Assembly: GCA_945928865.1 (NCBI GenBank)
Contig: CAMENZ010000007.1
Location: 1 to 64,000, forward strand
DNA length: 64,000 nt
Reading direction: 5' to 3'
DNA from: an uncultured Clostridia bacterium
GTDB taxonomy: Bacteria; Bacillota; Clostridia; Peptostreptococcales; Anaerovoracaceae
Shown: positions 14,248-42,954 of the stretch, piece by piece
How the letters are laid out: each line of letters opens with the position of its first letter
Numbering within the stretch: the stretch's first letter is position 1
Notes under the pieces: model-generated
What the model was told of the DNA's origin: nothing
The model's input: the letters and a program-made list of their open reading frames with translations, nothing else
The model's database searches: none
Program-made: the position numbers and the translations under genes

Positions 14248-14275
14248 TTTTTCACCTATTTATATATTTTCTCCT

Positions 14276-14370
14276 ATAAAACAAAATAGACCACGGGGGG
14301 CGTAGTCTACTTTGTTCAAAAGGGGTATTTTGGATTTGAGATTATGAGGTTATCAGGGGGGATAACCACG
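14276..14370 (-). ncRNA. Candidate small RNA or leader with two C-rich hairpin loops
   Basis: Read on the minus strand. A first hairpin (GGTTATC/GATAACC, 14348-14367) carries the loop CCCCCT. A single-stranded part contains ACCCC. A second 15-bp hairpin (14281-14315, two mismatches) has a CCCCC loop and runs into TTTAT. A promoter precedes it. Exposed C-rich loops plus a terminator-like end are the hallmarks of Bacillota small RNAs that pair with Shine-Dalgarno sites (RsaE/RoxS type). The RNA could instead be an attenuated 5' leader of the YprB-like gene, whose ATG lies 29 bp beyond the hairpin. Confidence 0.5.
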
Positions 14371-14375
14371 CTCTT

Positions 14376-14404
14376 ATTCTATCAAGAAACTTAAAAAAAA
14401 GCAA
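14376..14404 (-). promoter_or_regulatory. Minus-strand promoter for the C-rich RNA / YprB-like gene
   Basis: On the minus strand TTGCTT (14404-14399) and TAGAAT (14381-14376) are separated by 17 bp. The expected transcription start is about 14,369, at the foot of the first C-loop hairpin. Confidence 0.6.
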
Positions 14405-14492
14405 GTACTTATTTCAAAAAAATTGAAGAAAGTTGTAAAAAGTTTCAACTGTTTTAAAAAATCATAAAAAATTCACAAAAAAATATTTACCC

Positions 14493-14521
14493 TTGAACTT
14501 TTTATGAAGTAGTTATATACT
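14493..14521 (+). promoter_or_regulatory. Promoter of the XerD-like gene
   Basis: TTGAAC at 14493-14498 and TATACT at 14516-14521 with a 17-bp spacer, 42 bp before the start codon. Confidence 0.7.
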
Positions 14522-14562
14522 TATTCTAATAGAGTATTAAATGTTAGGAGCAAAATTGCTAT

Positions 14563-15435
14563 ATGGATAAGTTTGTTTTGTATTTAAAAAATGAAAAGCA
14601 GGTTTCAGGAAATACTGTAGAAGCATATATTAGAGATATGAGTCATTTTAATTCTTTTATTTTATATAGAGGATTACATAATATGGAAGATGTAAAGAGT
14701 ACAGATGTACTTGCATATATGATGTCTTTAAAAGAAGAGGGAAAGTCCCGTTCAACTCTTAATAGAAAGCTGGCTTCGATTAGAACATATTTTGCTTTTT
14801 TATTAAAAGAGGGCAAGATTATGGAAAATCCTGCAGAAAACATTAAAACTCCTAAGATTGAAAAAAAACAAATAGAGTTTTTATCTATGGAAGAAATGGA
14901 AAAGCTTTTAGATACTCCTGATGTTGATTTTAGAGGGCTTAGAGATAGAGCAATTTTAGAACTTTTGTATGCTACAGGTATTAGGGCAAGTGAATTGATT
15001 GACCTTAAAATTGAAGATGTAAACCTTAGGATGGGTTTTATAAAATGTGATGGCGAGCATAGTAAGGCTAGGGTGATTCCTATGGGAAGACCTTGCAGAA
15101 AAGCTATGGAAGACTATATATATGAAGGAAGAAAGGTTTTAGATAAGGGCAAGGAGAGCCAGTTTGTGTTTTTAAACTATATGGGAAATCAGATGACCAG
15201 ACAGGGGCTTTGGAAACTTTTGAAGGAATATGGAGAGAAAGCTAATTTAGATGATAATCTTACACCTCAGGTTATCAGGAACTCTTTTGCTGTCCATATG
15301 TTACAGAATGGAGCCGATATAAAATCTCTGCAGGAACTTATGGGACATGAAGATATAGTTGCAACACAAGTATATTTGGCTGTTACTAAAAATAGAATTA
15401 AAGATGTTTATGATAAAGCTCATCCTAGAGCTTAA
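14563..15435 (+). CDS. XerD-like tyrosine recombinase with an altered catalytic His
   Basis: A 290-residue protein with the usual XerC/XerD layout: a SAM-like core-binding domain at about 1-85 and a catalytic domain at about 107-280. It ends in AHPRA, as clostridial XerD proteins do. Arg141 (TGIRASEL), Lys168, Arg239, His262 (LMGHEDI) and Tyr271 are present. The conserved His of the H-x-x-R box is replaced by Gln236 (TPQVIRN), and the following His by Asn240. It may still cut and join DNA, since this His is assisting rather than nucleophilic, but activity could be reduced. It could act on chromosome dimers at dif or be a dedicated element recombinase. Confidence 0.8.
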   Translation: MDKFVLYLKNEKQVSGNTVEAYIRDMSHFNSFILYRGLHNMEDVKSTDVLAYMMSLKEEGKSRSTLNRKLASIRTYFAFLLKEGKIMENPAENIKTPKIEKKQIEFLSMEEMEKLLDTPDVDFRGLRDRAILELLYATGIRASELIDLKIEDVNLRMGFIKCDGEHSKARVIPMGRPCRKAMEDYIYEGRKVLDKGKESQFVFLNYMGNQMTRQGLWKLLKEYGEKANLDDNLTPQVIRNSFAVHMLQNGADIKSLQELMGHEDIVATQVYLAVTKNRIKDVYDKAHPRA

Positions 15436-15440
15436 AATTT

Positions 15441-15473
15441 AAGACCTTTTCACACAAGTGAAGAGGTTTTTTT
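15441..15473 (+). terminator. Terminator after the XerD-like gene
   Basis: ACCTTTTCAC pairs with GTGAAGAGGT around an ACAA loop and is followed by seven T. Confidence 0.8.
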
Positions 15474-15478
15474 ATACA

Positions 15479-15551
15479 AAAGTATACGCATAATGTATAC
15501 TTTGTGAAAAATAAGTTTAATGTATACTGTCACAGTGTAACTTTGTCACAG
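15479..15551 (+). promoter_or_regulatory. Repeat-rich control region before the redox operon
   Basis: AAAGTATAC (15479-15487) and GTATACTTT (15495-15503) form a perfect 9-bp dyad with a 7-bp centre. TAATGTATACT occurs at 15491-15501 and again at 15518-15528. GTCACAG occurs at 15529-15535 and 15545-15551. The TATACT copies could be -10 boxes, with the dyad acting as operator. A TTGACA at 15577-15582 may be a second -35 box nearer the gene. The binding protein is unknown. Confidence 0.45.
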
Positions 15552-15625
15552 AACTAATATTTAAAATGATGTAAAATTGACAAAATATAAACTTTTATTA
15601 AATTAATATATAAGGAGGATTAGAT

Positions 15626-17560
15626 ATGCTTTTTAAAACAACAGAGGCTCATGAGGAGCTTAGAGCGAAGGTTAGAGCTTTTGCTGAGGAGGAAATAAAG
15701 CCTATTGCTTTTAAACTGGATCAGGAAAATGAGTTTCCACATGAAGCTGTAAAGAAAATGGCAGAATTAGGACTTATGGGTCTACCTTATCCTAAGGAAT
15801 ATGGTGGAGCGGGAATGAGTACCTTAAGCTATGCTATCGCTGTAGAAGAATTGGCAAGGGTAGATGGTGGAGCAGGTGTAATTTTATCGGCTCATACTTC
15901 TTTAGGTTGTTATCCAATATATGCCTTTGGTACAGAGGAGCAAAAAAAGAAATATCTCACTCCATTAGCAAAGGGTGAAAAGTTAGGTGCTTTCGGTTTA
16001 ACAGAAATTAATGCAGGTTCTGATGCCGGCGGTACAGAAACAACAGCTGTACTTATGGGAGATCACTACTTATTAAACGGTGGTAAAATTTTCATTACAA
16101 ATGCTCCTATAGCAGATACTTATGTTGTGTTTGCAGTAACTACACCTAATATAGGTACTAGGGGAATCAGTGCCTTTATAGTAGAAAAATCCTATGAAGG
16201 CTTCGATTTTGGAGACCATTATGACAAGATGGGTATTAGATCATCTTCAACTGCTGAGCTTATTTTTAATGATGTTAAAGTTCCTAAGGAAAATCTTTTA
16301 GGTAAGGAAGGCGAAGGCTTCAAAATCGCCATGTCAACATTAGATGGCGGAAGAATAGGAATCGCGGCTCAGGCTTTAGGTATAGCACAGGGAGCTTTTG
16401 AGCATGCTAGAGAATATGGACTTGAAAGAGTGCAGTTCGATATGCCGATAGCTTTCCAGCAGGTAAATCAGTTTAAGTTTGCAGATATGGCTATTAAACT
16501 TAGAAATGCAAGATTCCAAGTTTATTCAGCGGCTGAACTTAAGGATAATCACGAACCTTTTGGCATGGAAGCAGCTATGGCTAAAACTTATGCTTCTGAT
16601 ATTGCTTTAGAAGTTTGTAATGATGCTCTTCAGATTTATGGCGGAAATGGATTCCTTAAGGGTATGGAAGTTGAAAGAGCCTATAGAGATGCAAAGATTA
16701 CAACTATTTATGAAGGAACTAATGAAATTCAGAGAGTTGTAATAGCTGCACATATTTTAGGAAAAGCTCCTAAGATGACTACAGCAAAATCCGGAAGTAA
16801 GGGTGGTCCTATTACAGGCGTAAGAAAAAAAGAAGTTTTTAGTAAGGGTAGTCCGGAGGAAAGAGTAAATCTTTTAGTAGAAGCTCTTAAGAATGATGGA
16901 TATGATTTTAATGTAGGCATAGATCCTATGACACCTATTTCTGAAGCTGACCGTGTGGTTTCTGCCGGTAAGGGTATAGGTGATATTAAAAATATGAAGC
17001 TTGTAGAAGCTTTAGCTTTAGAAGCCGGAGCAGCTATAGGTTCTTCCAGACCCGTTGCTGAAACCTTAAAATATCTACCTTTAGACAGATATGTAGGTAT
17101 GTCAGGACAGAAATTTACAGGCAACTTGTATTTTGCTTTAGGAATTTCCGGAGCAGGACAGCATTTAAAAGGAATTACAAGTGCTACTACTATTGTAGCT
17201 ATAAATAAAAATAAAAATGCACCTATTTTTAAGAATGCAGATTATGGTATAGTAGGGGATTTAGAAGAAATTCTTCCTTTATTAACTAAGGCTTTAGCTA
17301 CAGGTGAGCCTAAGAAACCGGCACCACCTAAGGTAAAGATGAGAAAGGCTACTATTCTTAAGGAACCATCACATTGGACTACATACGTATGTGATGGCTG
17401 CGGATATGAATATGATCCTGCAGTTGGAGATGAAGAGGGCGATATCAGTATAGGAACAACCTTTGAAGCGCTTCCTGAAGAATGGATTTGCCCAATATGC
17501 GGTGAAGAAAAGACAGCTTTTGTTGAAGTAGAAAAATATTCAAATAAGGAGGAAAAATAA
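15626..17560 (+). CDS. Acyl-CoA dehydrogenase / ETF-alpha FAD domain / rubredoxin fusion
   Basis: A 644-residue three-part redox protein. Residues about 1-380 are a complete short-chain-type acyl-CoA dehydrogenase, with the catalytic base Glu363 in IYEGTNE and the FAD-binding [11 protein letters not shown]. Residues about 443-557 match the C-terminal FAD-binding domain of electron-transfer flavoprotein alpha ([40 protein letters not shown]). After a Pro/Lys-rich linker, residues 585-640 are rubredoxin with iron ligands C589-x2-C592 and C622-x2-C625. The layout traces a path acyl-CoA to FAD to ETF-FAD to rubredoxin iron within one chain. SD AAGGAGG. The stop overlaps the start of the flavodiiron gene. 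The ETF part lacks the alpha N-terminal domain and an EtfB partner; these may be supplied elsewhere or not be needed. Confidence 0.93.
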
Positions 17561-28206: not shown

Positions 28207-29442
28207 TTAGCCAATATTTATAGCCTTTTTCCTGTAGTGAAAAAGGTTTTTTTCTTGATAAAGCATTTCATCGGCAGTAGAAATGAGTTTTTCTACTGTT
28301 TTCATTTCAGCTGTATATTGAGCAACTCCTATGGAAATGCTCAAATTATAAAAGGCTTCAGGAGAAGAGAAATTGGATTTTCCTATAAAAGCTTTTTCCA
28401 TAATATATTCTTCTTTGGCGATATCGTTTTCATCTTTTAAAGCTTTATGTATATCTTTACAAAGGGCTTCTACTTTTTCTTTATCACTTTCATTAAATAC
28501 TATTACAAATTCATCTCCACTTTGCCTAGCTATTAGGCATTTTTTATTAGCACAGGCTTTTCTAAGGGCAGTTGCTACTCTTACTAAGGCAACATCTCCT
28601 TCTATATGACCGTAGTTATCGTTTATGGTTTTAAAATCGTTTAAATCCATCATTAGAACATGAAATCCTTCTTTATCACCTTTTCCGTTATAATAATTTT
28701 TAATTTCTTCTAATAAAAAATTATACAAAAAAGCACGATTATAAAGTTTTGTCAAAGGATCAGTAGTAGTTAAAAATTCATTTAAAAGTGCACTGATTTG
28801 AAATGCTGTAAACACTATGCTTAGATTCATAACTGTTCTTCCTGGTATAAAAAAAGATATTAAACAAGCCAACATAGGTATTATAGTTATAAAAGCTAAA
28901 GCAAAAAAATTGTTTCGTTGTTTTCTGTTTGGAGATTTGAATCCATGTATCAGTGTTATTATTAAGGTTCCGGTTATAATGCACACTGAAATCAAAGGAA
29001 TCAAGAAGAAAAGAGGTCCTTTAACATAATTAGAATTCTTATCTATGCTAAATATTAATCCTGTATTATAGGACATTAACAATAATAAGGAGAGAGTAAG
29101 AGCTATGAACATTAACCCTTTTCTTAGATTTTTTTTGTTTAGAGGAACAGTAGATTTCATTGCCCAAAAACTAATATTTAAAAATATGGACATTGAGGTC
29201 AAAAGTAAAAAGTATATAGCATTTACAAAAAAATGAATGGTTGGAGGTGCAATAAAGTAGTCACTGGAAATTATTACCCAGGACAGATCGGTAATAAAGA
29301 AGAAAAAGCAGCTAACCAGTAAGTATTTAACATATTTGAATAAATCTTCAGTAGATGATGAAATCTGCTTTTCTAATCTATATACAATGAATAATATTGC
29401 TAACATACAGAAAATATCTTCTTGTATAAATATTCGATTCAT
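28207..29442 (-). CDS. Membrane diguanylate cyclase (GGDEF domain)
   Basis: A 411-residue protein with seven or eight membrane helices at about 8-225 and a GGDEF domain at about 235-405. The domain shows DPLTKLYNRAFL at its start, MMDLNDFKTINDNYGH (metal and substrate Asp), and a signature reading SGDEF in place of GGDEF, a substitution tolerated in active enzymes. No RxxD inhibitory site is obvious just before it. It would make cyclic di-GMP in response to a membrane signal. It lies divergent from the type IV pilus operon, which suggests a regulatory link. The SD GAGGTATGTT precedes ATG. Confidence 0.9.
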   Translation of the reverse strand: MNRIFIQEDIFCMLAILFIVYRLEKQISSSTEDLFKYVKYLLVSCFFFFITDLSWVIISSDYFIAPPTIHFFVNAIYFLLLTSMSIFLNISFWAMKSTVPLNKKNLRKGLMFIALTLSLLLLMSYNTGLIFSIDKNSNYVKGPLFFLIPLISVCIITGTLIITLIHGFKSPNRKQRNNFFALAFITIIPMLACLISFFIPGRTVMNLSIVFTAFQISALLNEFLTTTDPLTKLYNRAFLYNFLLEEIKNYYNGKGDKEGFHVLMMDLNDFKTINDNYGHIEGDVALVRVATALRKACANKKCLIARQSGDEFVIVFNESDKEKVEALCKDIHKALKDENDIAKEEYIMEKAFIGKSNFSSPEAFYNLSISIGVAQYTAEMKTVEKLISTADEMLYQEKNLFHYRKKAINIG

Positions 29443-29714: not shown

Positions 29715-29743
29715 TTGACACTTCAAGTTATTTCAGTTAAAAT
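29715..29743 (+). promoter_or_regulatory. Promoter of the type IV pilus operon
   Basis: A perfect TTGACA at 29715-29720 and TAAAAT at 29738-29743 with a 17-bp spacer. The predicted leader is only about 53 nt, too short for a c-di-GMP riboswitch. The rest of 29,443-29,714 is AT-rich, with a small TGGCT/AGCCA hairpin near 29,675 and no gene. Confidence 0.7.
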
Positions 29744-29802: not shown

Positions 29803-32800
29803 ATGAATTGTAAGGTTAGGGATAAAAAAGGGTTTACCCTCATAGAAACGCTTTTAACATTGGCAATTCTGATTATTTTACTGTCTATTTCTATGCCTTT
29901 TGCAGGGAATTTAGCTAAGGAATTAAAAATGATGCAAATGGATTCTGCTGCTAAGGAAATATTTTTAGCAGCTCAAAATCGCTTAGTTCATATTAAATCT
30001 ATGGGGCAGTTAGGCAATGATGGAGTTTTTCAATTAGCAATGAATAATACTACCTTGTTTAGTGAAAATGCCACTAGTAGAAAGTTGAGTGTTAATGGGG
30101 ATTTTGGTGGATTAGCTCCTGATGGATATCCGGAAGGAGATGAAGGGTGGAAGGAATTATATTATTTAAGATCGGACGATCCGATAGTTGAAAAATATTT
30201 GTTATCTGATTTATCTTTCGATGCTATAGAAGGAAGTTTTATTATGGAAATGAATCCGGTAACGGGGGATGTTTATAGTGTATTTTATAGTGAAAAAACA
30301 GATAATGAATCTAATCTAAAATCTATATATAACAGTTTATATACTGCAAGAGCAAAAAAAAGCAGAATGGCTTTTTATGTAGGATATTATAGCGGCAAAG
30401 GTGGTAGAACTCAGGTTAGTGAAAGTTTTGAGCCTAAGGTGGAGGTTATAAATGGAGAGGATTTATATTTAAAGATTACTTCATCAGGCATTAGAAGAAA
30501 AAATCCTAGTTTCTTAAATATAAAGATTAATCTTAAAGATGAGCATGGTAATATATATAATTTAAATGACATACATGGAAATAGCCCTGCTGTAACTATT
30601 ACTACTAATCAGCTTACAACCTATGTTTTATTAGATAGTCTTAGAACTGATAGTACAGGTAGACTTTCCTTTGAAAATATCACCAATCATGAGTTGAATC
30701 CGGGAGATAATATTAAAGTAGAGGTTAAAGTTGAATACAATCCTAGTGAAGGAACGCCAATAGGTACAGATGATGATAAAATTGCAATAGCTGAATTTAA
30801 TAGTCTTTTTGATACAGGAAGTAAGACTAATGAAGGAGAGAGTGAAATTTTAATTTCTAAACTCCGTCATTTGAATAATTTAAGAGAATCTATATTTAAG
30901 GTGGATAGTAAAGTTAATAAAATCAAAGTTAAACAAACTAATGAAATTAATTTTGATTTTAAATTAGGTGTAGATAAAACTACTCCGGATAAAAAAGTTT
31001 TGACTTTGGATGATTTTCATCCATCCTATGAAGGGAAAAACCCTATTTCAAAGTTTGAACCTGTTTTTAATAGAACTATATTTGGAATGGATGGCATAAA
31101 GGGCATTGGAGAGTATGAAGGTAATGGAAATACAATCAATGATTTCATAATTAAATCAGATGGTTCTAATGTGGGTTTGTTTGCCCAGCTCAACTGTAAT
31201 GTTTCTAATGTTTTAATTAGAGATATGGAGATTTCAGGAAATAATAATGTTGGAACTCTAGCGGGACAAGCTTTTGGTGGGAAAATAACTAATTGTGGAG
31301 CCTATGTAAATACTCATAATTATAATAATATTTTATATAGTAATATACCTCAAAGGCTTGAAAAGTACACTGTAAAAGGGAATAACAATGTAGGCGGATT
31401 AGTTGGGAGAAACTATAATACTATTATTGATAAAGCTTTCTCTGCCGTGTATGTAAATGGGATGAGCAAGTATATTGGAGGGTTAGCAGGCTATAGCAAT
31501 GGAAGTATTATTAAAAATTCTTATGCTTCCGGCGATTTAATTTCTGAATCGGCAGATTTTGTTGGAGGATTAGTTGGAGGCCTTACTTCCGGAAGTATAA
31601 AAAATTGTTATTCAACTTCAGATATTACAGGAAATCAATATCTAGGCGGTTTAGTAGGCAATGTAAGAAATATAGCTAATGTAGATGATAGTAATTCCTA
31701 TGGATTAGTGAAAAAAGATAAGATTAATGCTACAGACTATATCGGTGGATTTTCCGGCAGTATTTCAGGGAATTATAATAATTGCAATTATTTAAAACAA
31801 AGTCGGTATAATAGCAGTTTCCCTAAAGTTAACCAAAATGGTGTTAATTCAAGGACTTATAAATATTTATCTAATAATATTATTAATCCTAAGGAATTAT
31901 TTAAACCTTATGATATAAAACTTATTCAAGATGTGAATGAAAAATTCCCATTTAAGAGGGTTACTGAAATTCATTTTGGGGATTGGCCTGAAAAAATAAA
32001 AGCTAAGACTACTTTGATATATTATGAGAAGTATAGTGATGGAAGTTTTGGATATTATGGTAAGGGTTCCACTACAGGGGAAATAAATTATGAGTGGAAA
32101 TTAGATACATTAAAAAATCAAAAATATTTGAGCAAATATGGATTGTATTTAGTGGAAGACGGTTATGGAATTCTTTCCGGTGATGAACTTAAGTCTATAA
32201 ATTATGCCTTGAATCCTAATAATACTACTACAGCGGATAATAGTCCGGCTGTTCCGGTTTCGATGAATTTAGAAGCTACAAATCAATTTGTAAACATTGA
32301 TAAACCGGTTAGTCTTAAGTTTGAAATTACAGATTCTGCTGATGAAGAAGACTTTACAATGGAAAATTCTTATGTGTATAGACTTCCATTTAATCTTCAA
32401 GAAAATAGAAATACTAAGGATAATGCCTTTAATAGTAGGTTAAAAATTTGGTCTGAAGATATTAAGGACTTAGATAAGAATAAGAAGGAGGTATACTTAT
32501 TTATTTATTGTCCACACTTCGCTAAATCTGTCCTTAGTCCAAGTGATACAAAAATTGTAAATACTAACCTTTTAGATCCGCCAAGGGGACAGGTATATAT
32601 AAGGAGTCCTAGACATTTAAATGCTTTAGGAAGATATCCTTATTATTGGAATGCGACTAACAGCTCTTATGATAATCTGGTTTATAATCAGGAAATTGAT
32701 TTAGACTTTGGAAAATATAATAAGAGGTATTGTGGTGTTAATTTTGACCTTATGAATACTGATTTAGGCTATGAATATAAAAATAAGCCTATAGGTATGG

Positions 32801-33903
32801 ACGGGGGAAATAGAGCATCTCAGTTTAGATACACTTATGACGGACATGGATATAATATTATAGATTATTGTCAAAAAATATATAAGGGTGAAGCACCTGG
32901 TGGACAAAGTTATAAATTTACAGGACTTTTCGGCGAAATACGCCGTGCAACTTTGAAGAATATTCATATGGTTGCATCTAAGCCGGAAAAAGATTGGTTT
33001 AATAGCTCTTCTGCATATATTAAAACCTACGGGGTAAACTCCAATCAAAGTGCAGTTGCAGTGGGTGGTTTAGTAGGACTTTTATATATTACAAAGGATG
33101 AAGGTATGAATGTAGAAATTGCTTCAAAGAAGACAGTAGTTTCTAACTGTAGTATTTCCGGTTATGATGTTATTTTATCCATAGATGGATTAAATACCAA
33201 TTCTGCTGTTGGTGGACTTATAGGTATGTCTATGGGTACTGTAACTAATTCTAGTGCTGTATGTGGCTTAGTTGCAAATGATAGCATTAAATCACTGGGC
33301 CGTTCCTATCATTCAGCGGGAGGATTCGCCGGATCGAAGATTCATGGAACTCTTAAAAACTGTTATGCAGGAGGAACTTTAAGAGCAACTGATAGTAGAT
33401 GGTTCTATATGGGCGGTATTGTAGGTGGACAGATTTTCACATGGTCACCGTTTAGTCATAACTGGAATAGTATATGGAATTCCGGTATTACTAATTGTTA
33501 TGCCTTTACTAAGGCCGCAGATCTAAGCATAGGCTCTACTGCATATTTCCCAATAGCAGACCCGGGTAAGAAATTCCCTGAGTATAGTTTAGATGGAAGA
33601 ATGAATTGTGCTTATTTTGAGCCGGGTGGTTATTTGCCGGGACAACTTAGCAGGTTTACAAGTTTTGCAAAGTTTAGTGAAATACCTTGTTATAGTATGG
33701 CTGAGCTAAAAGATGCAATCGGTGTACTTAGAACGAGCGTAGTAGATTTTGACTTTGATTTAGTAGAAGATTCTTATGTTTACCCGTGGACAGAGAGCTT
33801 AAAAGGCTTACCATATCCTATAGGTTATTCCAGCGTATATGGAGATGGTGATTCTAATAGTGAAAATTATCATAGAGTCCACTATGGCGACTGGATACAA
33901 TAA
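29803..33903 (+). CDS. Giant type IV prepilin-like adhesin with GLUG repeats
   Basis: A 1,366-residue protein that begins with a bona fide prepilin signal, KKGFTLIETLLTLAILIILL (cleavage after Gly, Glu at +5), and then a long ectodomain. Two zones of GLUG-type repeats are clear: about residues 475-625 (NNVGGLVGRN, YIGGLAGYSNGSI, FVGGLVGGLTSGSI, YLGGLVGN) and about 1085-1200 (VGGLVGLL, VGGLIGMSMGTV, AGGFAGSKIHGT). GLUG repeats are associated with bacterial surface and IgA-protease-like proteins. It is first in the pilus operon and may sit at the pilus tip. The sequence AGAGG seven to eleven bases before ATG is a moderate SD. Confidence 0.88.
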   Translation: MNCKVRDKKGFTLIETLLTLAILIILLSISMPFAGNLAKELKMMQMDSAAKEIFLAAQNRLVHIKSMGQLGNDGVFQLAMNNTTLFSENATSRKLSVNGDFGGLAPDGYPEGDEGWKELYYLRSDDPIVEKYLLSDLSFDAIEGSFIMEMNPVTGDVYSVFYSEKTDNESNLKSIYNSLYTARAKKSRMAFYVGYYSGKGGRTQVSESFEPKVEVINGEDLYLKITSSGIRRKNPSFLNIKINLKDEHGNIYNLNDIHGNSPAVTITTNQLTTYVLLDSLRTDSTGRLSFENITNHELNPGDNIKVEVKVEYNPSEGTPIGTDDDKIAIAEFNSLFDTGSKTNEGESEILISKLRHLNNLRESIFKVDSKVNKIKVKQTNEINFDFKLGVDKTTPDKKVLTLDDFHPSYEGKNPISKFEPVFNRTIFGMDGIKGIGEYEGNGNTINDFIIKSDGSNVGLFAQLNCNVSNVLIRDMEISGNNNVGTLAGQAFGGKITNCGAYVNTHNYNNILYSNIPQRLEKYTVKGNNNVGGLVGRNYNTIIDKAFSAVYVNGMSKYIGGLAGYSNGSIIKNSYASGDLISESADFVGGLVGGLTSGSIKNCYSTSDITGNQYLGGLVGNVRNIANVDDSNSYGLVKKDKINATDYIGGFSGSISGNYNNCNYLKQSRYNSSFPKVNQNGVNSRTYKYLSNNIINPKELFKPYDIKLIQDVNEKFPFKRVTEIHFGDWPEKIKAKTTLIYYEKYSDGSFGYYGKGSTTGEINYEWKLDTLKNQKYLSKYGLYLVEDGYGILSGDELKSINYALNPNNTTTADNSPAVPVSMNLEATNQFVNIDKPVSLKFEITDSADEEDFTMENSYVYRLPFNLQENRNTKDNAFNSRLKIWSEDIKDLDKNKKEVYLFIYCPHFAKSVLSPSDTKIVNTNLLDPPRGQVYIRSPRHLNALGRYPYYWNATNSSYDNLVYNQEIDLDFGKYNKRYCGVNFDLMNTDLGYEYKNKPIGMDGGNRASQFRYTYDGHGYNIIDYCQKIYKGEAPGGQSYKFTGLFGEIRRATLKNIHMVASKPEKDWFNSSSAYIKTYGVNSNQSAVAVGGLVGLLYITKDEGMNVEIASKKTVVSNCSISGYDVILSIDGLNTNSAVGGLIGMSMGTVTNSSAVCGLVANDSIKSLGRSYHSAGGFAGSKIHGTLKNCYAGGTLRATDSRWFYMGGIVGGQIFTWSPFSHNWNSIWNSGITNCYAFTKAADLSIGSTAYFPIADPGKKFPEYSLDGRMNCAYFEPGGYLPGQLSRFTSFAKFSEIPCYSMAELKDAIGVLRTSVVDFDFDLVEDSYVYPWTESLKGLPYPIGYSSVYGDGDSNSENYHRVHYGDWIQ

Positions 33904-33920
33904 TAAAACAGGAGGTGTTT

Positions 33921-34673
33921 ATGAATTTAATATTGAAAAAAGTTAAAAGCACCTCCGGTGCAACCATAATAATGGCACTTATTTTTTTACTGATATGTGT
34001 TACCATTTCGGCTATTATAATTACAGCTTCTATGGCTAATGCAGTAAAATTAGAAAAACGAAAACAAGAACAACAAGCCTATTTATCCGTAGCCTCTTCA
34101 GCAGAAATTTTGAGAGAAAATATAAAAAATATGAGCTGTGAATTATTTCAAGAGGATTGGCAGTACACTTGTGGTTTTCCTGATGATACTCATTTAAGTC
34201 AAGGTTTAAAGAAAAGTGGTTTGAGTGTGTGGACTTTTTCTAAAAATAGTTCAGGTGATTTATTGAAAGTAGAGTCTAAGGTCTGGATGCATAAATATAT
34301 AAATGAATCTGTTAAAGGGTTAATTGATAATAGTCATTTTCAACCTAAAGAAGAAAAGTTTATTATGGAAGATTCTAAAACTAAGATTAAAAATACTGTT
34401 TTAGTAAAAATGAATGATAATTTTAATTTATCTTTCATATTGACTGCCAACGCAACTAAAGATAATGAATATACTATTTCTTTTGTAGCCAAGAGTTTGG
34501 TTACAACCTTGCCTGGTGAAGATGATAAAAGTAAATCTTGTGGTCATTGGGTTAAGGAAAGGGATAGTAGAGGCAGGTTAGTAGATGTGTATAGAAAGTA
34601 TCCTTACACTATTACCACCTATAGAAAACAGATAAACTGGAGTTTACAGCCTATTAGACAGGGGGTAAACTAA
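33921..34673 (+). CDS. PilX-like minor pilin component
   Basis: A 250-residue protein with a single N-terminal hydrophobic helix (GATIIMALIFLLICVTI), like PilX or GspK minor pilins, lacking the +5 Glu of normal pilins. No other motif is known to me. ATG 33921 is chosen over GTG 33915 because the perfect SD AGGAGGTG lies just before it. Its stop overlaps the next start (TAATG). Probably primes pilus assembly together with the next two proteins (inference). Confidence 0.7.
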   Translation: MNLILKKVKSTSGATIIMALIFLLICVTISAIIITASMANAVKLEKRKQEQQAYLSVASSAEILRENIKNMSCELFQEDWQYTCGFPDDTHLSQGLKKSGLSVWTFSKNSSGDLLKVESKVWMHKYINESVKGLIDNSHFQPKEEKFIMEDSKTKIKNTVLVKMNDNFNLSFILTANATKDNEYTISFVAKSLVTTLPGEDDKSKSCGHWVKERDSRGRLVDVYRKYPYTITTYRKQINWSLQPIRQGVN

Positions 34674-35592: not shown

Positions 35593-35612
35593 GATAAAAT
35601 AGGGAGAGCATG

Positions 35613-37334
35613 ATGGCATATAAAAGATTAGGTGACATACTTTTACAAGCAGGAATTATTACAGATAGAGAATTGGAAACTTATTTACTGAAGGGCAAGG
35701 AAGATAAAAAAAGATTAGGTAAGGTATTGCTGGATGCAGGGGTTATTACTGAAATACAGCTTATAGATCTTTTGAAACTTCAGTTAGGAGTGGACTATAT
35801 TGATTTGACTACATATAGTATACCTACAGTTATGGCTCAGGTATTGCCTAAAAATTTGGCTAAAAAATATACTGTAGTACCTGTTAAGATAGTAGGCGAT
35901 TCTCTTTATTTAGCCATGGCAGATCCTTTAAATTTTATGGCTATAGAGGAAGTAAAAAAGGCAACTAAAAAGAGAATTATACCTATGATAGCTATGGAAA
36001 GTTCTGCTGAAAGAGCTATCAGAACCCTTTATGGAAATGAGGGTGTAAATCGTGCCATAGATGAAATGCAGAAAAGCATTGGTATTGATGAATTATCCGT
36101 AAAAGCCAATGTAGAAACAGGTGGTGATGAAGCAGAACAGGCTGCACCTGCCATAAGGGTAGTAAATTCCATATTGGAAAGAGGTATTGCAGAGAAGGCT
36201 AGTGATATACACATGGAACCTAGAGAGGATGGGCTTTATGTAAGGATGAGGATAGATGGTGTGTTACATCAGATTTTAACTGTCCCTGCAACTTTACAAA
36301 ATTCTATAATTTCAAGAGTTAAAATAATAAGTAATTTAGATATTGCTGAAAGAAGGATTCCACAGGATGGCAGAGCCACTATAAAAGCTGCAGGTGTAGA
36401 AATGGATATGAGAATTTCTACTCTACCTACTAAGTATGGTGAAAAACTTGTAATAAGATTTTTAGAAAAATCTAAAGATATGCTTTCAAGTACCGGCATA
36501 GGTCTTAAGGGTGAACACTTAAAACAATATGAATCTTTAATACAGAATTCTAACGGAGTAATTTTAATAGCAGGACCTACAGGTTCCGGAAAATCAACTA
36601 CAATGTATACTATGATTTCTGATTTAAATGAAGAAGAAGTGAATTTAGTTACTTTAGAAGACCCTATTGAGTATGATTTGCCCGGTATAAACCAGGTACA
36701 GATAAATGAAAAAGTAGGTATGACTTTTGCCTCAGGACTTAGAGCTATTTTAAGACAGGATCCTGATATTATAGCTGTGGGAGAAATTAGAGATGGAGAA
36801 ACTGCTGAAATAGCAATGCGTTCTGCCATAACAGGGCATTTAGTTCTTTCGACTATTCATACTAACAGTTCTATTGCCACAATTGATAGATTATTAGATA
36901 TCGGTGTGGAGCCATATTTAATTACCGGAGCTGTTAAAGGCATAATTTCACAGAGATTAGTTCGCAAAATATGCCCAAAATGTAAGACCTCTTATATTCC
37001 TAGTTTGGATGAACTGTCAGATTTAAAATTAGATAATAAAACCTTACTTGAAATGGGTTTTAATTCTAAAGAAGAAATAAAATTTTTTAAGGGAGAAGGT
37101 TGTCCGCATTGCTTAAATACAGGATATAAGGGAAGAAGCGCCGCTTTTGAAATTTTAACCTTAACATCAGATGTTAAACAATTGATTAGGGAAAGAGCTT
37201 CTTATTCCCAATTGACAGAAGCTATTTCAAAATCTGGATATAAGCCTATGATTGACCATGTTAGGCGTTTAGTAATATCAGGAGAAACAACTTTAGAAGA
37301 AGCAAAAAGAATTTTACACACTACAGAGGTTTAG
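35613..37334 (+). CDS. pilB: Type IV pilus assembly ATPase PilB
   Basis: A 573-residue GspE/PilB family ATPase. An MshEN-type N-terminal domain covers about 1-150. The motor domain has Walker A GPTGSGKSTTMYT, an Asp box, Walker B DPDIIAVGEIRD and a His box, GHLVLSTIHTNS. A four-Cys zinc module (CPKC...CPHC) follows near 450-500. It extends the pilus. ATG 35613 is preferred over the ATG three bases upstream because AGGGAG is then six bases away. Confidence 0.95.
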   Translation: MAYKRLGDILLQAGIITDRELETYLLKGKEDKKRLGKVLLDAGVITEIQLIDLLKLQLGVDYIDLTTYSIPTVMAQVLPKNLAKKYTVVPVKIVGDSLYLAMADPLNFMAIEEVKKATKKRIIPMIAMESSAERAIRTLYGNEGVNRAIDEMQKSIGIDELSVKANVETGGDEAEQAAPAIRVVNSILERGIAEKASDIHMEPREDGLYVRMRIDGVLHQILTVPATLQNSIISRVKIISNLDIAERRIPQDGRATIKAAGVEMDMRISTLPTKYGEKLVIRFLEKSKDMLSSTGIGLKGEHLKQYESLIQNSNGVILIAGPTGSGKSTTMYTMISDLNEEEVNLVTLEDPIEYDLPGINQVQINEKVGMTFASGLRAILRQDPDIIAVGEIRDGETAEIAMRSAITGHLVLSTIHTNSSIATIDRLLDIGVEPYLITGAVKGIISQRLVRKICPKCKTSYIPSLDELSDLKLDNKTLLEMGFNSKEEIKFFKGEGCPHCLNTGYKGRSAAFEILTLTSDVKQLIRERASYSQLTEAISKSGYKPMIDHVRRLVISGETTLEEAKRILHTTEV

Positions 37335-37345
37335 GAAGTGATTAT

Positions 37346-38419
37346 ATGAATGTTATAGAAATTGTAAAAAAAGGCAAAGAGTTAGGAGCTTCAGATATAC
37401 ATATAGTTGCAGGCTTACCTGTAAGATATAGAATAGACGGTTTACAGGAAAGTATAGATGAAATAGTTGTAAGTGAATCTGATTGTGAAGATATAGGTAG
37501 AGAATTACTAGGTGAAGCTTATGAAAATATTGCTGAAATTGGAGAGGCGGATTTTGCTAAAACCTTTGATGGAAATATTAGATGTAGGATTAATCTTTTT
37601 AGGCAGCAAGGGAAGCTATCAGCGGCTATTAGGATTTTAGCAGATAAAATTCCTGATTTAGATGATTTAGGACTTCCGGAAGTTGTAAAGAAGTTTCCTG
37701 AGCAAAGAAAAGGCATTGTCTTAATTACGGGAGAAACGGGTTCCGGAAAATCTACTACATTAGCTGCCTTATTAGATTCTATAAATAAAAATAGAAAATG
37801 CCATATAATAACCTTGGAAGATCCAATAGAGTATATATATGAGCCTAAGCTGGCTACTATAAATCAAAGAGAAATCGGTAAAGACACAGAAAGTTATGCA
37901 TCCGGTTTAAAGGCTATTTTAAGAGAAGATCCGGATATAATTTTGATTGGTGAAATGAGAGATGCAGTAGCCATAGAGACAGCTTTAACAGCGGCGGAAA
38001 CGGGACACTTAGTTTTTTCAACCTTGCATACTAATTCAGCTTCAGATTCTATAGACAGAATCGTGTCTGTTTTTCCGGCTGAGAAACATTCTCAAATAAG
38101 AAATCAGCTTTCCATGACTCTTTTAGGAATAGTTTCACAGCAACTTTTACCTAAAAAAAATGATAAAGGTAGAGTGTTAGCCTGCGAAGTGATGACCGTA
38201 ACCTCTGCTATAAAAGCTCTTATAAGAGACGGAAAGACAGCACAAATTGCTAATTCTATGGCTACATCTTTAGCTTTAGGTAATATTACTATGGATATGA
38301 ATTTGATAAAGATGGTAAAGGAAAATAAAATTTCTGTTGATGAAGCGATAAAAACTTCTAATGATGGTGAGTTTGTCAGGAAAAGTGTAGGTTTTGGTAG
38401 TAGGATGGGTAACTTATGA
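37346..38419 (+). CDS. pilT: Twitching motility ATPase PilT
   Basis: A 357-residue retraction ATPase. The N-terminal part has GASDIHIVAGLPVRYRIDG, then Walker A GETGSGKSTT, Walker B DPDIILIGEMRD, the His box TGHLVFSTLHTNSA and the C-terminal region that replaces the AIRNLIRE box (AIKALIRDGKTAQI). Its presence with PilB implies pili that extend and retract, giving twitching motility or DNA uptake. It overlaps pilC by four bases (ATGA). Confidence 0.95.
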   Translation: MNVIEIVKKGKELGASDIHIVAGLPVRYRIDGLQESIDEIVVSESDCEDIGRELLGEAYENIAEIGEADFAKTFDGNIRCRINLFRQQGKLSAAIRILADKIPDLDDLGLPEVVKKFPEQRKGIVLITGETGSGKSTTLAALLDSINKNRKCHIITLEDPIEYIYEPKLATINQREIGKDTESYASGLKAILREDPDIILIGEMRDAVAIETALTAAETGHLVFSTLHTNSASDSIDRIVSVFPAEKHSQIRNQLSMTLLGIVSQQLLPKKNDKGRVLACEVMTVTSAIKALIRDGKTAQIANSMATSLALGNITMDMNLIKMVKENKISVDEAIKTSNDGEFVRKSVGFGSRMGNL

Positions 38420-39624
38420 TAACATATAAGTATGAGGCTATTTCTCAAAGCGGAGTAGCTATAACAGGTATAATAAAAGCTATTGATAAAAGTGATGCGA
38501 TTATTAAATTAAAATCTGAATGTACGATAGTAAACAGTTTAACAGAGATTAAAGAAAAACCAAGTTTATTTGGGAGAAAAGGTAAGACTAATATTAAAGA
38601 TAAGTCCCTTTCTTTGATGTGCAGACAGTTTTCTATTATTCTATCTGCAGGAATCCCTATTATGAGATCAGTGGAATTAGTAGCCAATCAGATGAGTGAT
38701 AGAGGGATGAAAAGACTACTTAATAGCGTGGCAGAAGATGTGGCAGCAGGTATGAGTATGTCTGATAGTTTTAATTTAAGAGGTCCGGATTTACCACCGA
38801 CTTTAATTGAAACTCTTAAAGCAGGGGAAGCGTCCGGTGCTTTAGAGGAAACTTTTATGAAACTTTCAGAGTTTTACAGTAAAAAGTCTAAAGTAAAGTC
38901 TAAAGTTATTTCAGCTTTAACTTATCCGGCTTTTGTAATAGGCGTAGCGGTTATAGTTATTGGAATTATAATGGTATTCGCAGTTCCAACTTTTGCTAGA
39001 GTATTTGAAGGTATGGGCATAGAATTACCTTTAGCCACTAGAATTATAATAGGTTTGTCAGAATTCTTTGCTAATTGGTTTTGGCTAGTCCTCTTAATAT
39101 TATTGGTTTTAATAGTAGGGCTTAGACTTTATACAAAGTCTGCAAGTGGCGGAGTAAAAATGGCTAAATTTATGCTAAAGCTACCTTTAGTGGGAAAAAT
39201 TCAACTTATGAATGCTTCCAGTCAGTTTGCCAATACACTGGCAACTTTACTTACTGCAGGTTTACCTGCGGTTCATGCTTTAGGTATAACAGGTAAGACT
39301 TTAAGTAATAAATTTTTATCTTTGTCAGTTATGGAGTCTTTAGAAGATGTAGAAGCCGGATATAGGATAGGCACAAGTCTGAAGAGGCGAAAGGCATTCC
39401 CTGATTTGTTAGTGGAAATGACCGGTGTAGGAGAAGAATCCGGTTCTATGGAAACCACATTAGAAGTTATAGGGGATTACTATGATAACGAGGTAGAAGT
39501 AACTACTAATAGAGCTATTAGTTTGTTGGAACCGATAATAATATGTGTTTTAGCAATTTTTGTAATAATTGTATTACTTTCCGTATACTTGCCAATGTTT
39601 AGTTTATATGATAGTATTGGATAA
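38416..39624 (+). CDS. pilC: Type IV pilus inner-membrane platform protein PilC
   Basis: A 402-residue GspF/PilC protein. It has two copies of the GspF cytoplasmic helical domain (about 65-190 and 265-390), with FSIILSAGIPIMRSVELV in the first and FANTLATLLTAGLPAVHAL in the second, and three membrane helices. It anchors the pilus and couples it to the PilB/PilT motors. The start overlaps the pilT stop. Confidence 0.94.
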   Translation: MITYKYEAISQSGVAITGIIKAIDKSDAIIKLKSECTIVNSLTEIKEKPSLFGRKGKTNIKDKSLSLMCRQFSIILSAGIPIMRSVELVANQMSDRGMKRLLNSVAEDVAAGMSMSDSFNLRGPDLPPTLIETLKAGEASGALEETFMKLSEFYSKKSKVKSKVISALTYPAFVIGVAVIVIGIIMVFAVPTFARVFEGMGIELPLATRIIIGLSEFFANWFWLVLLILLVLIVGLRLYTKSASGGVKMAKFMLKLPLVGKIQLMNASSQFANTLATLLTAGLPAVHALGITGKTLSNKFLSLSVMESLEDVEAGYRIGTSLKRRKAFPDLLVEMTGVGEESGSMETTLEVIGDYYDNEVEVTTNRAISLLEPIIICVLAIFVIIVLLSVYLPMFSLYDSIG

Positions 39625-39660: not shown

Positions 39661-40482
39661 ATGCGGGAAGTTTTAGATATAGGCATTATGCCTTTAGAAT
39701 TGAAAATATATATTGGAATATTAGCAGTAATAATAGGGCTTGTATTCGGCAGTTTTTTAAATTGTGCAGCCATAAGACTAATAAATGAGGAAAGCATAAT
39801 CATGGGGAGGTCTCATTGCCCAAGCTGTAATCATACTTTAGGAACTTTAGACTTAATACCTATTTTAAGCTGGATTTTTTTAAACGGTAGATGTAGATAT
39901 TGCCAAAGCAAAATATCTCCTAAATATCCAATTTCAGAATTAGTATCCGCCATATTAGTTTTAGGTGTGATTTTCAAAATCGGATTGGGTTTAATTCTCG
40001 TAAAATGGTTAGTTTTTATATGGATTTTGTTTACTATAAGTCTAGTGGATTTTGAAGCTTATATTATTCCTGACAGTTTAATAATTTTAGGTATACTGAA
40101 TCGTATAGTGTTTGCCTTTACATCAAGCAATATTAAAACAGAGCTTATGAGCTCTTTAATAGGTGGATTAATCATGGCAGTGCCTATTACTTTAATAGTT
40201 TTGTTATTTGAAAAAATAATGAATAAAGAGGCAATGGGCGGTGGCGATTTAAAATTGTTTTTTATGGTGGGAATCTATTTTAGCTGGTCCGTCAATTTGT
40301 TTATATTAATCGTATCGTGTTTATTAGGTATTTTGTTTGGAGTTATTCAGCTTAGAATTTCAAAATTCAACTCAGACGCTAAAATATTTCCCTTTGGACC
40401 TGCTATTTCCTTAGGGAGTTTTATAGGGCTGATGTGTGGAAAAGAATTAGTTAATATATATCTCAGTTTCATATATGTTTAA
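39661..40482 (+). CDS. pilD: Prepilin peptidase PilD
   Basis: A 273-residue polytopic aspartyl protease and methyltransferase. The N-terminal domain has the zinc motif CPSC...CRYC (about 55-95), and the catalytic Asp residues lie in LVDFEAYIIPD and MGGGDLKLF. It removes the leader after Gly from the four pilin-like proteins encoded upstream. The SD AAAGG is rather distant from ATG; the next in-frame ATG, nine codons later, has none. Confidence 0.94.
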   Translation: MREVLDIGIMPLELKIYIGILAVIIGLVFGSFLNCAAIRLINEESIIMGRSHCPSCNHTLGTLDLIPILSWIFLNGRCRYCQSKISPKYPISELVSAILVLGVIFKIGLGLILVKWLVFIWILFTISLVDFEAYIIPDSLIILGILNRIVFAFTSSNIKTELMSSLIGGLIMAVPITLIVLLFEKIMNKEAMGGGDLKLFFMVGIYFSWSVNLFILIVSCLLGILFGVIQLRISKFNSDAKIFPFGPAISLGSFIGLMCGKELVNIYLSFIYV

Positions 40483-40522: not shown

Positions 40523-41500
40523 ATGAAAAGTTCACTTATGGGCATTGAAATAAGCGGTAGTGAGATAGGAATGTTTCAAATGCAAGGAGATAAGGCTATT
40601 TTTAAGGTAGAGCGATTACCTGAAAATTTAATTAGGGATAGAGAAATAGTCTCTCCGGAAACTTTATCAAAATTAATTAAATATATAAAACAGAAAGAAA
40701 ATTTTGTTGGTAAAAAATGTGCAATTATATTACCTGAATTCAGCACATTTTTTAGAAATTTAAGTATGCCGCCAATGACTGAAAGTCAACTGGAATTAAA
40801 TTTACCTTATGAATTTAGGGATTTTGTCAGTTCTAATAGCATTGAATATAATTATGATTATGCTGTTGAAAGTATTGAAAAAGATCCGGAGGGTAAAGTT
40901 AATTCTATGGAACTTATTGCTTGTGCAGGTGAAAAGGCTACAATTTCTGATTTTGAGCAGGTGTTAAGAAGGGCAGGCATGAGATTAACTGTAGCTATTC
41001 CGGCAGAAATGGCTATAATCAAATTGTTGAGAAGTGTAGGTGACGAAGAAGAAAGATGTATAATTGATATTGGTTATCAGACTACCAGAGTATTCATTTC
41101 CAAGGGGAGTCATCTTTCAGCATTTAGAACTATTGAGTTGGGTTGCAGACATATAGATGAAGTAATTGCTTCCATATATAATATTGATGAATTTTTAGCA
41201 GCGAATTATAGGGAAAGTAATTTTGATAATGTTTTAGGTTCTGAAGCTTTAATAGAAATTTATAGACATACAGCTTTAGAACTATTAAAGGTTGTCAATT
41301 TCTATAAATATGAATATCAGGATAGTGTGTTAAGTAAGGTTTATTTTACAGGTTTGGGAGCTAGTGTGGTGGATTTAGTAAATGAAATAAATAATTATGT
41401 TGATTTTGATATTGAAGACATCCATAGTATATTACCTAAAGAATGTAGAGGGATTAAGGATATTTATAAGAGTATTATGACAGTAGGTGCAGTTTTGTAA
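40523..41500 (+). CDS. pilM: Type IV pilus assembly protein PilM
   Basis: A 325-residue actin-fold ATPase-like protein with PilM features: a GIEISGSEIGMFQM beta-hairpin at the start, PPMTESQLELNLPYEF, and the nucleotide site CIIDIGYQTTRVFI near 178-191. It binds the cytoplasmic tail of PilN and links it to the motor. The next gene follows after 10 bp. Confidence 0.88.
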   Translation: MKSSLMGIEISGSEIGMFQMQGDKAIFKVERLPENLIRDREIVSPETLSKLIKYIKQKENFVGKKCAIILPEFSTFFRNLSMPPMTESQLELNLPYEFRDFVSSNSIEYNYDYAVESIEKDPEGKVNSMELIACAGEKATISDFEQVLRRAGMRLTVAIPAEMAIIKLLRSVGDEEERCIIDIGYQTTRVFISKGSHLSAFRTIELGCRHIDEVIASIYNIDEFLAANYRESNFDNVLGSEALIEIYRHTALELLKVVNFYKYEYQDSVLSKVYFTGLGASVVDLVNEINNYVDFDIEDIHSILPKECRGIKDIYKSIMTVGAVL

Positions 41501-41510
41501 GGAGGTAGCA

Positions 41511-42161
41511 ATGGATTTAAAAGGTTTACTTAATAAGAATATAGGTGAAATAAAGTCTGGGGCTAAGAACAAAACTCCTGAAAAAAAGGAAATGAACTTA
41601 TATGTTAGGCAGATTACAGATAATAGCTTAAGAAGGGTTTTACCTTTTGCAATTTTTTTAGTAATCGTAATAGGAATTTTCGGAAAGTTTGCTGTAGTAG
41701 ATAGACTAGTTGAGCTTTCTGAGAAAAATAGGAAATATGAGGAAACTACAGCTATAATATCAGATTTAAGTCTTCAGCTTAAAGACTATGATAGTGTTGA
41801 AGAGAAATATATAAGATATACAGAACACTATAAAACTGATGAAGAAAATGTGTTGTTAAAAAGAGAAAAAATTCTTAAAGTGATTGACAAGGCAAGCTCT
41901 AATTTAGCAACAGTGGAATCCATATCCATAACAGATAATGTGGTTTTAGCCAGGATTGTTTCTAAAAATTTAGATGATATTAGAAAATTAAAGACTAAAC
42001 TTGAAAATTCTCCTTTTGTATCTTTAGTAAATGTATATAATGCCGATAGAGGTGATAGAGGTACGGTTTATGAAGGTAGGGTTCAAGGCAGTATAGTTAT
42101 AAATGTAATTGATCCTGAAAAGCCTGTAATTAAAACAGAAAATGTAGAAGGAGGTAATTAA
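41511..42161 (+). CDS. pilN: PilN-like pilus alignment protein
   Basis: A 216-residue single-pass protein with a short cytoplasmic N-terminus starting MDLKGLLNKNIGE, a membrane helix at about 47-66, a coiled-coil stretch, and a C-terminal alpha/beta domain. The start is ATG 41511 with SD GGAGG; in-frame codons upstream overlap pilM and have no SD. Family assignment rests on order (M-N-O) and topology more than on sequence. Confidence 0.8.
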   Translation: MDLKGLLNKNIGEIKSGAKNKTPEKKEMNLYVRQITDNSLRRVLPFAIFLVIVIGIFGKFAVVDRLVELSEKNRKYEETTAIISDLSLQLKDYDSVEEKYIRYTEHYKTDEENVLLKREKILKVIDKASSNLATVESISITDNVVLARIVSKNLDDIRKLKTKLENSPFVSLVNVYNADRGDRGTVYEGRVQGSIVINVIDPEKPVIKTENVEGGN

Positions 42162-42162
42162 A

Positions 42163-42699
42163 ATGAATAAAACAATTAGTTTGAGAGAAATGATACTCTT
42201 AGTTATTCTTGTAGTTTTAGTTGCCTATTATTTCGTAGTTCAGGGTCCTATTAAAAGAGAAACTGAAAGTTTGGAGAGAGCCCAAGCAGAAGCCGATATA
42301 CAGCTGGAAGAAATGCAGGACAAGGTTTTTAAAAAGAAATACATGGAAAAAGAATTAGAAGAAATTTTAAAAGATTCTCAGCATATAAAAATGTTGGCGG
42401 ATTATGATAATATAAATTACATTATGGCTGAATTGAATGGTATTTTTGCTAAGACTAATAAGTATAATATTAATTTTGGTGATCTTGTAATGGAAAACAA
42501 AATTGCCAGAAGAAATATAGAAGTGAGTTGCACCACTGATAATTACGAAAAAGCCAAGGATATAATTTCAGAGGTTCAAAATTCAGATAATCGTTACTTA
42601 ATAACGGATATTTCCATAGTTAACAACCCCTTTAAAGAAGGAAGAGTTGGCTGTAATTTAAATATTAATATAACAAGTTTTGAATATGTAGAGGAATAG
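42163..42699 (+). CDS. pilO: PilO-like pilus alignment protein
   Basis: A 178-residue single-pass protein with a membrane helix at about 9-27, a coiled coil (ETESLERAQAEADIQLEEMQDK) and a C-terminal ferredoxin-like domain. It starts one base after the pilN stop with SD GGAGG. Forms the PilN-PilO heterodimer in the pilus machine. It ends the pilus operon; I see no clear terminator before the valS promoter. Confidence 0.78.
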   Translation: MNKTISLREMILLVILVVLVAYYFVVQGPIKRETESLERAQAEADIQLEEMQDKVFKKKYMEKELEEILKDSQHIKMLADYDNINYIMAELNGIFAKTNKYNINFGDLVMENKIARRNIEVSCTTDNYEKAKDIISEVQNSDNRYLITDISIVNNPFKEGRVGCNLNINITSFEYVEE

Positions 42700-42739: not shown

Positions 42740-42954
42740 AAATTAAATATAAAAACAGTGAAGAAGAGGAGTAGATAAAATTACCCTTTACAGAGAATTA
42801 TAGCCTTAGGCTGAGAGCTATAAGAGAAGGTGTTTATTGAAGGTTGCTTTGGAGTTTTACCTAAATGAGTGCTTGAAATATAATTTCAGGAATAAAGGTG
42901 GTACCACGGAAAATTTTTCGTCCTTTGTAAGTTAGTTTACAGAGGACTTTTTAT
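42740..42954 (+). promoter_or_regulatory. T-box riboswitch controlling valS
   Basis: A tRNA-sensing leader. The invariant T-box AAAGGTGGTACCACGG is at 42894-42909. The competing terminator is GTCCTTTGTAA (42920-42930) against TTTACAGAGGAC, followed by five T. An upstream Stem I region with AGAG and a GCTATA/TATAGC arm spans about 42,760-42,860. The specifier should be a Val codon; GTG or GTT within GGTGTTTATTGAAGG near 42,830 is a candidate, but I could not fold it with certainty. Uncharged tRNA-Val would favour read-through into valS. Confidence 0.92.

Follow-up and report, generated by a model that had tools for sequence, protein, structure and literature searches.

The analysed window (the whole stretch of 64,000 nucleotides) contains a compact operon of eleven type IV pilus genes separated by gaps of -14 to 40 bp, in the order giant prepilin, K-like, I-like and J-like pilins, PilB, PilT, PilC, PilD, PilM, PilN-like and PilO-like (Table 1). 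The first gene, which ends 11 bp before the next one, codes for a predicted type IV pilus subunit of about 10 times the usual size and comes from a gut Firmicute. The first-pass annotation had described it as the first gene in an operon carrying its own peptidase and motors, and PilB, PilT, PilC and PilD were indeed found downstream. No Pfam PilN match was obtained for the PilN-like gene (41487..42161). The likely major pilin, a protein of 142 aa (L096:7769-8197), is encoded elsewhere in the genome. A T-box leader (42749-42928, + strand) is located between the pil operon and valS.

Table 1. Features of the pil operon and of its first gene, in positions of the window.
Feature	Position	Strand	Basis
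Candidate sigma-70-type promoter TTGACA-17-TAAAAT, ~60 bp upstream of the giant gene	29715..29743	+	11/12 matches
Giant modular prepilin, 1366 aa	29803..33903	+	sequence, Pfam
Class III signal (leader) peptide MNCKVRDKKG, cut predicted before F11, Glu at mature position 5	29803..29832	+	sequence, Pfam N_methyl
Pilin module: alpha1 helix (model residues 13-66) and small beta strands to ~residue 205	29833..30417	+	AlphaFold
Ig/FN3-like beta sandwich, residues 207-351	30421..30855	+	AlphaFold, structure comparison
Ectodomain unit 1: RHLNNL (355), GLUG right-handed beta-helix (420-665), HFGDWP (724-729)	30835..31992	+	motifs, AlphaFold, HMM
Linker, residues 731-930, containing a second beta-rich domain that begins near LIYYEKYSDGSFGYYG	31993..32592	+	
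Ectodomain unit 2: RHLNAL (937), GLUG beta-helix, terminal HYGDWIQ (1360-1366)	32593..33900	+	motifs, profiles, model
K-like minor pilin, 252 aa, without Glu5	33915..34673	+	weak GspK model match (0.0086); sequence SG/ATIIMALIF; same in relatives
I-like (ComGE-like) minor pilin, 111 aa	34673..35008	+	profile match
J-like minor pilin, 188 aa	35026..35592	+	profile match; relatives
PilB extension ATPase with MshEN (c-di-GMP-binding type) domain	35610..37334	+	profile matches
PilT retraction ATPase	37346..38419	+	TIGR01420 above cut-off
PilC platform protein	38416..39624	+	profile matches
PilD prepilin peptidase (A24)	39661..40482	+	Pfam
PilM	40523..41500	+	profile matches
PilN-like	41487..42161	+	position and same-order homologues in relatives
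PilO-like, last pil gene ahead of the valS T-box leader	42163..42699	+	weak T2SSM profile match; relatives

The giant gene forms a single open reading frame with an ATG start and zero internal stops. The leader of its product is followed by the mature start FTLIE, in which Glu5 is present, and Pfam N_methyl (residues 6-30, 4.5e-05) and Glug (9.2e-19) models matched the protein above their cut-offs. A class III signal peptide with a terminal Gly, a hydrophobic alpha1 and Glu5 make it a type IV prepilin, in agreement with the earlier description of a complete prepilin cleavage motif and of a giant prepilin to which a GLUG ectodomain is fused. Among 50 aligned giants, G10 and E15 were invariant and F11 was nearly invariant, and a GFxxxE-type motif (G[FMYIVW][STV]xxE) was present in 79 of the 80 relatives described below. 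The possibility, raised in the first-pass annotation, that the frame is an assembly artefact joining two genes was ruled out because the same long frame recurs in relatives from other genomes; the GC3 is also even along the frame (0.17–0.26) and resembles that of the remaining pil operon genes.

The promoter listed in Table 1 is only suggestive, as shuffled sequences contained such sites about as often as the region did (27 observed versus 24.8 expected). A gene encoding a GGDEF protein (diguanylate cyclase; 28207-29442, - strand) is oriented divergently to the pil operon. Together with the MshEN domain of PilB, its presence suggests that the pilus may be controlled by c-di-GMP. A c-di-GMP riboswitch lies upstream of the pili genes in C. 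difficile; a search for one upstream of the pil operon of the window found none.

To describe the architecture of the protein, a core of about 740 residues was aligned for 50 members of the family (the giant of the window and 49 relatives). Invariant positions were distributed along the whole core and comprised A56, A57, Q58 and N59 in the pilin module, within a conserved AKxIFxAAQN motif, R355 and N359 in RHLxNL, and G726 and W728 in HxGDW. Structure prediction of the ectodomain had been proposed as a check in the first-pass annotation, and the AlphaFold model based on the core alignment (pLDDT 77.2, pTM 0.71) placed a beta sandwich (~207–351) and a right-handed beta-helix (~420–665, pLDDT mostly >90) after the pilin helix alpha1 (13–66) and the small pilin strands. 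A profile search against solved structures returned pilins for residues 2–56 of the giant and 3n6z for residues 422–636. The beta sandwich resembled cytokine-receptor FN3-like domains (Z about 9).

In the VIA-align comparison, the predicted beta-helix matched the GLUG-type right-handed beta-helix of M26 metallo-IgA1 proteases (7uvk, 6xjb), with Z = 28.9 over 276 residues at 2.6 A rmsd for 7uvk, and that of the B. ovatus protein 3n6z (Z = 28.8), the next row after the IgA1-protease rows having Z = 15.5. The giant hence has the make-up of a modular pilin, combining a pilin module with a domain which is not pilus-specific (Glug, IgA1-protease-type beta-helix) and which may serve a pilus function such as adhesion directly. 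In the IgA1 protease of S. pneumoniae, the beta-helix acts as a mobile gate, and catalysis depends on residues of other domains (PMC7695701). Unlike the M26 enzymes, the giant has no protease domains and is anchored via a pilin signal, and a search for HExxH in its sequence found none, so IgA1 protease activity was rejected. A pilus-borne enzyme of the polysaccharide lyase or hydrolase type is a highly improbable reading of the beta-helix: right-handed beta-helix lyases, hydrolases and tailspikes do appear lower in the structural list, with Z up to 15.5, but the IgA1 protease beta-helix heads that list by a wide margin, and zero catalytic families were matched by the giant. Sortase anchoring was rejected as well, as no LPxTG motif was found in the giant of the window.

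The two zones of GLUG repeats noticed in the first-pass annotation were present (residues ~530–650 and 1088–1240), but the ectodomain is not made of repeat zones alone; what is duplicated is a larger unit consisting of an Ig/FN3-like domain, RHLxNL, the beta-helix and HxGDW. The first copy runs from RHLNNL at 355 to HFGDW at 724–728 and the second from RHLNAL at 937 to HYGDW at 1360–1364. When the profile of the first units (A3) was compared with that of the second units (A4), a probability of 100 and E = 6.5e-70 over 432 columns were obtained, which identifies the two GLUG zones as a tandem duplication of one unit of ~430 aa. The AlphaFold model of the second unit was weak (pLDDT 59.8, residues beyond 517 below 50), and only its beta-helix match to 3n6z (Z = 25.1) was used. 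A short recurring motif, xLVYYExYxDGxxGxxG, opens the second unit in Oscillospiraceae-type giants (L132, L150, L115, L118–L120 and L123) and was also seen in the window at ~31993–32100 (LIYYEKYSDGSFGYYG).

An HMM-based count of the units in 68 complete giants, including that of the window, revealed one unit in 37 proteins, two in 14, three in 12 and four or more in 5, the counts above one being rough because the HMM hits fragment. HxGDW was taken as the end of the unit, since many one-unit giants terminate directly after HYGDWPxPE. Longer giants carry additional SpaA, Big_2, Flg_new, glycine-rich or carboxypeptidase-regulatory domains.

When genomes were scanned with the complete sequence of the single giant, zero matches were obtained, its patterns falling in variable parts, whereas the scan with the N-terminal alignment (one genome per species) confirmed 126 of 204 candidates, and 80 relatives were kept. 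The GLUG matches obtained among relatives included several surface proteins which have no pilin signal and are unrelated to the giant pilin. The relatives came from Clostridia, Erysipelotrichia, Coriobacteriia and Granulicatella (a genus of Bacilli) and share a common plan: pilin, Ig/FN3-like domain, RHLxNL, GLUG beta-helix and HxGDW. The 67 complete ones ranged from 454 to 3413 aa, with a median of 1088, and named species with family members include Baileyella intestinalis, Eubacterium pyruvativorans, Oscillibacter valericigenes and Emergencia timonensis. Within the same GTDB family, giants of 824, 846, 933, 1193, 1768 and 2034 aa were located in or beside a pil operon, several of them directly followed by K, I and J genes, and the nearer ones were homologous to the giant of the window over approximately its first 660–730 residues. 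The arrangement in which K, I and J genes come immediately after the giant was encountered in several families. The distribution was scored with the whole core, since the N-terminal profile alone over-calls, most of its order-level matches being ordinary pilins of 120–200 aa. Matches to the core reaching E = 1e-40 were found in 11 of 149 genomes for the family to which the window belongs and in 4 of 291 for the class; among good genomes of this family, the giant occurred patchily (8/84). As judged from these homologues, the giant pilin represents a widespread conserved family and not an oddity.

Two tandem giant GLUG prepilins were observed in one related genome (G172:C8:9821-12262 and 14104-16410). 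In rumen-type loci (L108, L117, L136, L147, L151, L156, L159, L161, L169 and L178), a giant prepilin of ~800 aa is followed by a surface protein of more than 2,500 aa with a Sec-like N-terminus, and MBG_2, SpaA or Flg_new domains were detected in two of the three proteins of this type that were tested.

The connection of the giant with the pilus machinery was evaluated by comparing pairwise distances. Those of the giant N-terminus correlated with those of PilB (Mantel r = 0.80) and also with those of PilM (r = 0.75), with n = 28 and p = 0.0002 in either case. Such co-divergence reflects co-inheritance, which is expected of a fixed part of the machine, and shared species ancestry alone also gives a correlation. 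Among 46 giant loci with ample flanks, recognisable pilus machinery was present in 30 and none was recognised nearby in 16, so the linkage is not universal. These observations bear on the possibility that the giant is a membrane-retained surface protein which borrows a pilin signal and stays outside any filament. Many rumen loci have no recognised pil gene beside the giant and encode another very large Sec-type surface protein after it, as this possibility would allow, but the giant of the window heads a pil operon, the family co-diverges with PilB and PilM and the alpha1 features are conserved, which makes membrane retention improbable.

In known systems, the minor pilins H, I, J and K form the initiating tip complex, in which K lacks Glu5 (PMC9934059), and the tip of monoderm Com pili is composed of four minor pilins (PMC12153270). 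In the window and in relatives, the K-like pilin is devoid of Glu5 and the I- and J-like pilins are separate proteins; gene order and sequence mark the giant as the fourth minor pilin encoded beside them, with Glu5 retained. By elimination, it would therefore fill the remaining H place. This suggests an H-like subunit, although the profile evidence is mixed and includes matches to major-pilin models: among 50 giant N-termini, matches were obtained for GspH in 13, ComGD in 8, ComGE in 11 and a PilA model in 28. Like GspH and ComGD, the giant would be a fourth minor pilin beside I, J and K, and its N-terminal matches to their models are weak; GspH and ComGD are small pilins with no ectodomain. 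Because H links the three tip pilins with the shaft in known complexes, an H-like giant may project from just below the tip rather than cap the pilus, as had been supposed in the first-pass annotation.

Taken as a whole, a probability of about 0.68 was assigned to the reading in which the giant is a modular minor pilin cut by PilD and placed, probably as H, in a tip complex with K, I and J, its ectodomain being an adhesive rod. The PilD of the operon would remove the leader and the pilin module would join the filament via alpha1. The giant, probably in the H position, and the K-, I- and J-like pilins would build the initiating complex, so that the rod of two Ig-like-plus-beta-helix units, each closing with HxGDW, would project at the filament tip or slightly beneath it. 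The ligand bound by the ectodomain would be presented by host mucosa, by particles of the diet or by other bacteria. Extension and retraction of the giant-bearing pilus would be driven by PilB and PilT, and reach and specificity would depend on how many units are present and, among relatives, on additional surface domains. Adhesion at or near the tip would be the best mechanism for such a protein. Insertion along the shaft as a sparse side fibre appears unlikely: the retained Glu5 would permit another subunit above the giant, the separate K-like pilin without Glu5 is available as a tip cap, and a body location is left open if the linker is flexible (PMC8179133); however, a module this large collides with adjacent subunits in modelled S. 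sanguinis filaments (PMC8179133), and gene order couples the giant to the K, I and J minor pilins.

The proposed tip or near-tip adhesin has its closest counterparts in PilB and PilC of S. sanguinis, modular pilins with adhesive modules modelled at the tip (PMC8179133, PMC9934059). The two S. sanguinis pilins have been implicated in adhesion. Like them, the giant is encoded in a type IVa pilus operon of a monoderm and has a prepilin signal followed by a large C-terminal module of non-pilin type. In contrast, mature PilB of S. sanguinis has 454 residues with a vWA module and PilC carries a lectin module, while the giant has 1366 aa, duplicated Ig-like/beta-helix units forming a conserved and expandable module, and separate K-, I- and J-like pilins. 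A large beta-solenoid is also borne by a minor pilin of Thermus thermophilus, ComZ (PMC8179133); there, the solenoid forms an insertion within the pilin sheet and is tied to DNA binding, whereas that of the giant is C-terminal and arranged in tandem units. Modular pilins as such are known, and in 2021 comprised more than 1,200 proteins in 264 architectures, the most extreme multi-domain case having 860 aa (PMC8179133). The giants extend the size of modular pilins well past this value. What is new is a coherent family of giants that is widespread and unites a single conserved core with a variable number of units. None of the papers searched joins GLUG with pilins, and single members may already figure in the modular-pilin list of PMC8179133.

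Monoderms lack the diderm tip adhesin PilC/PilY1 (PMC9934059), so the pili of monoderm gut bacteria would carry adhesins in some other way. The giant family provides a direct adhesin candidate for these pili and a natural size series of one to three or more units. As a tentative extension, put at somewhat under even odds, the H position of the pilus tip complex might have become, across gut and rumen monoderms, a giant rod that is expandable through its tandem Ig-like/beta-helix units. Such a rod would be a monoderm counterpart of PilC/PilY1, with the unit number tuned by lineage.

A second modular pilin was identified in the same genome (L097:9516-10460; G000:C2:27602). It consists of 314 aa and combines a prepilin motif with BspA-type leucine-rich repeats (LRR_5).
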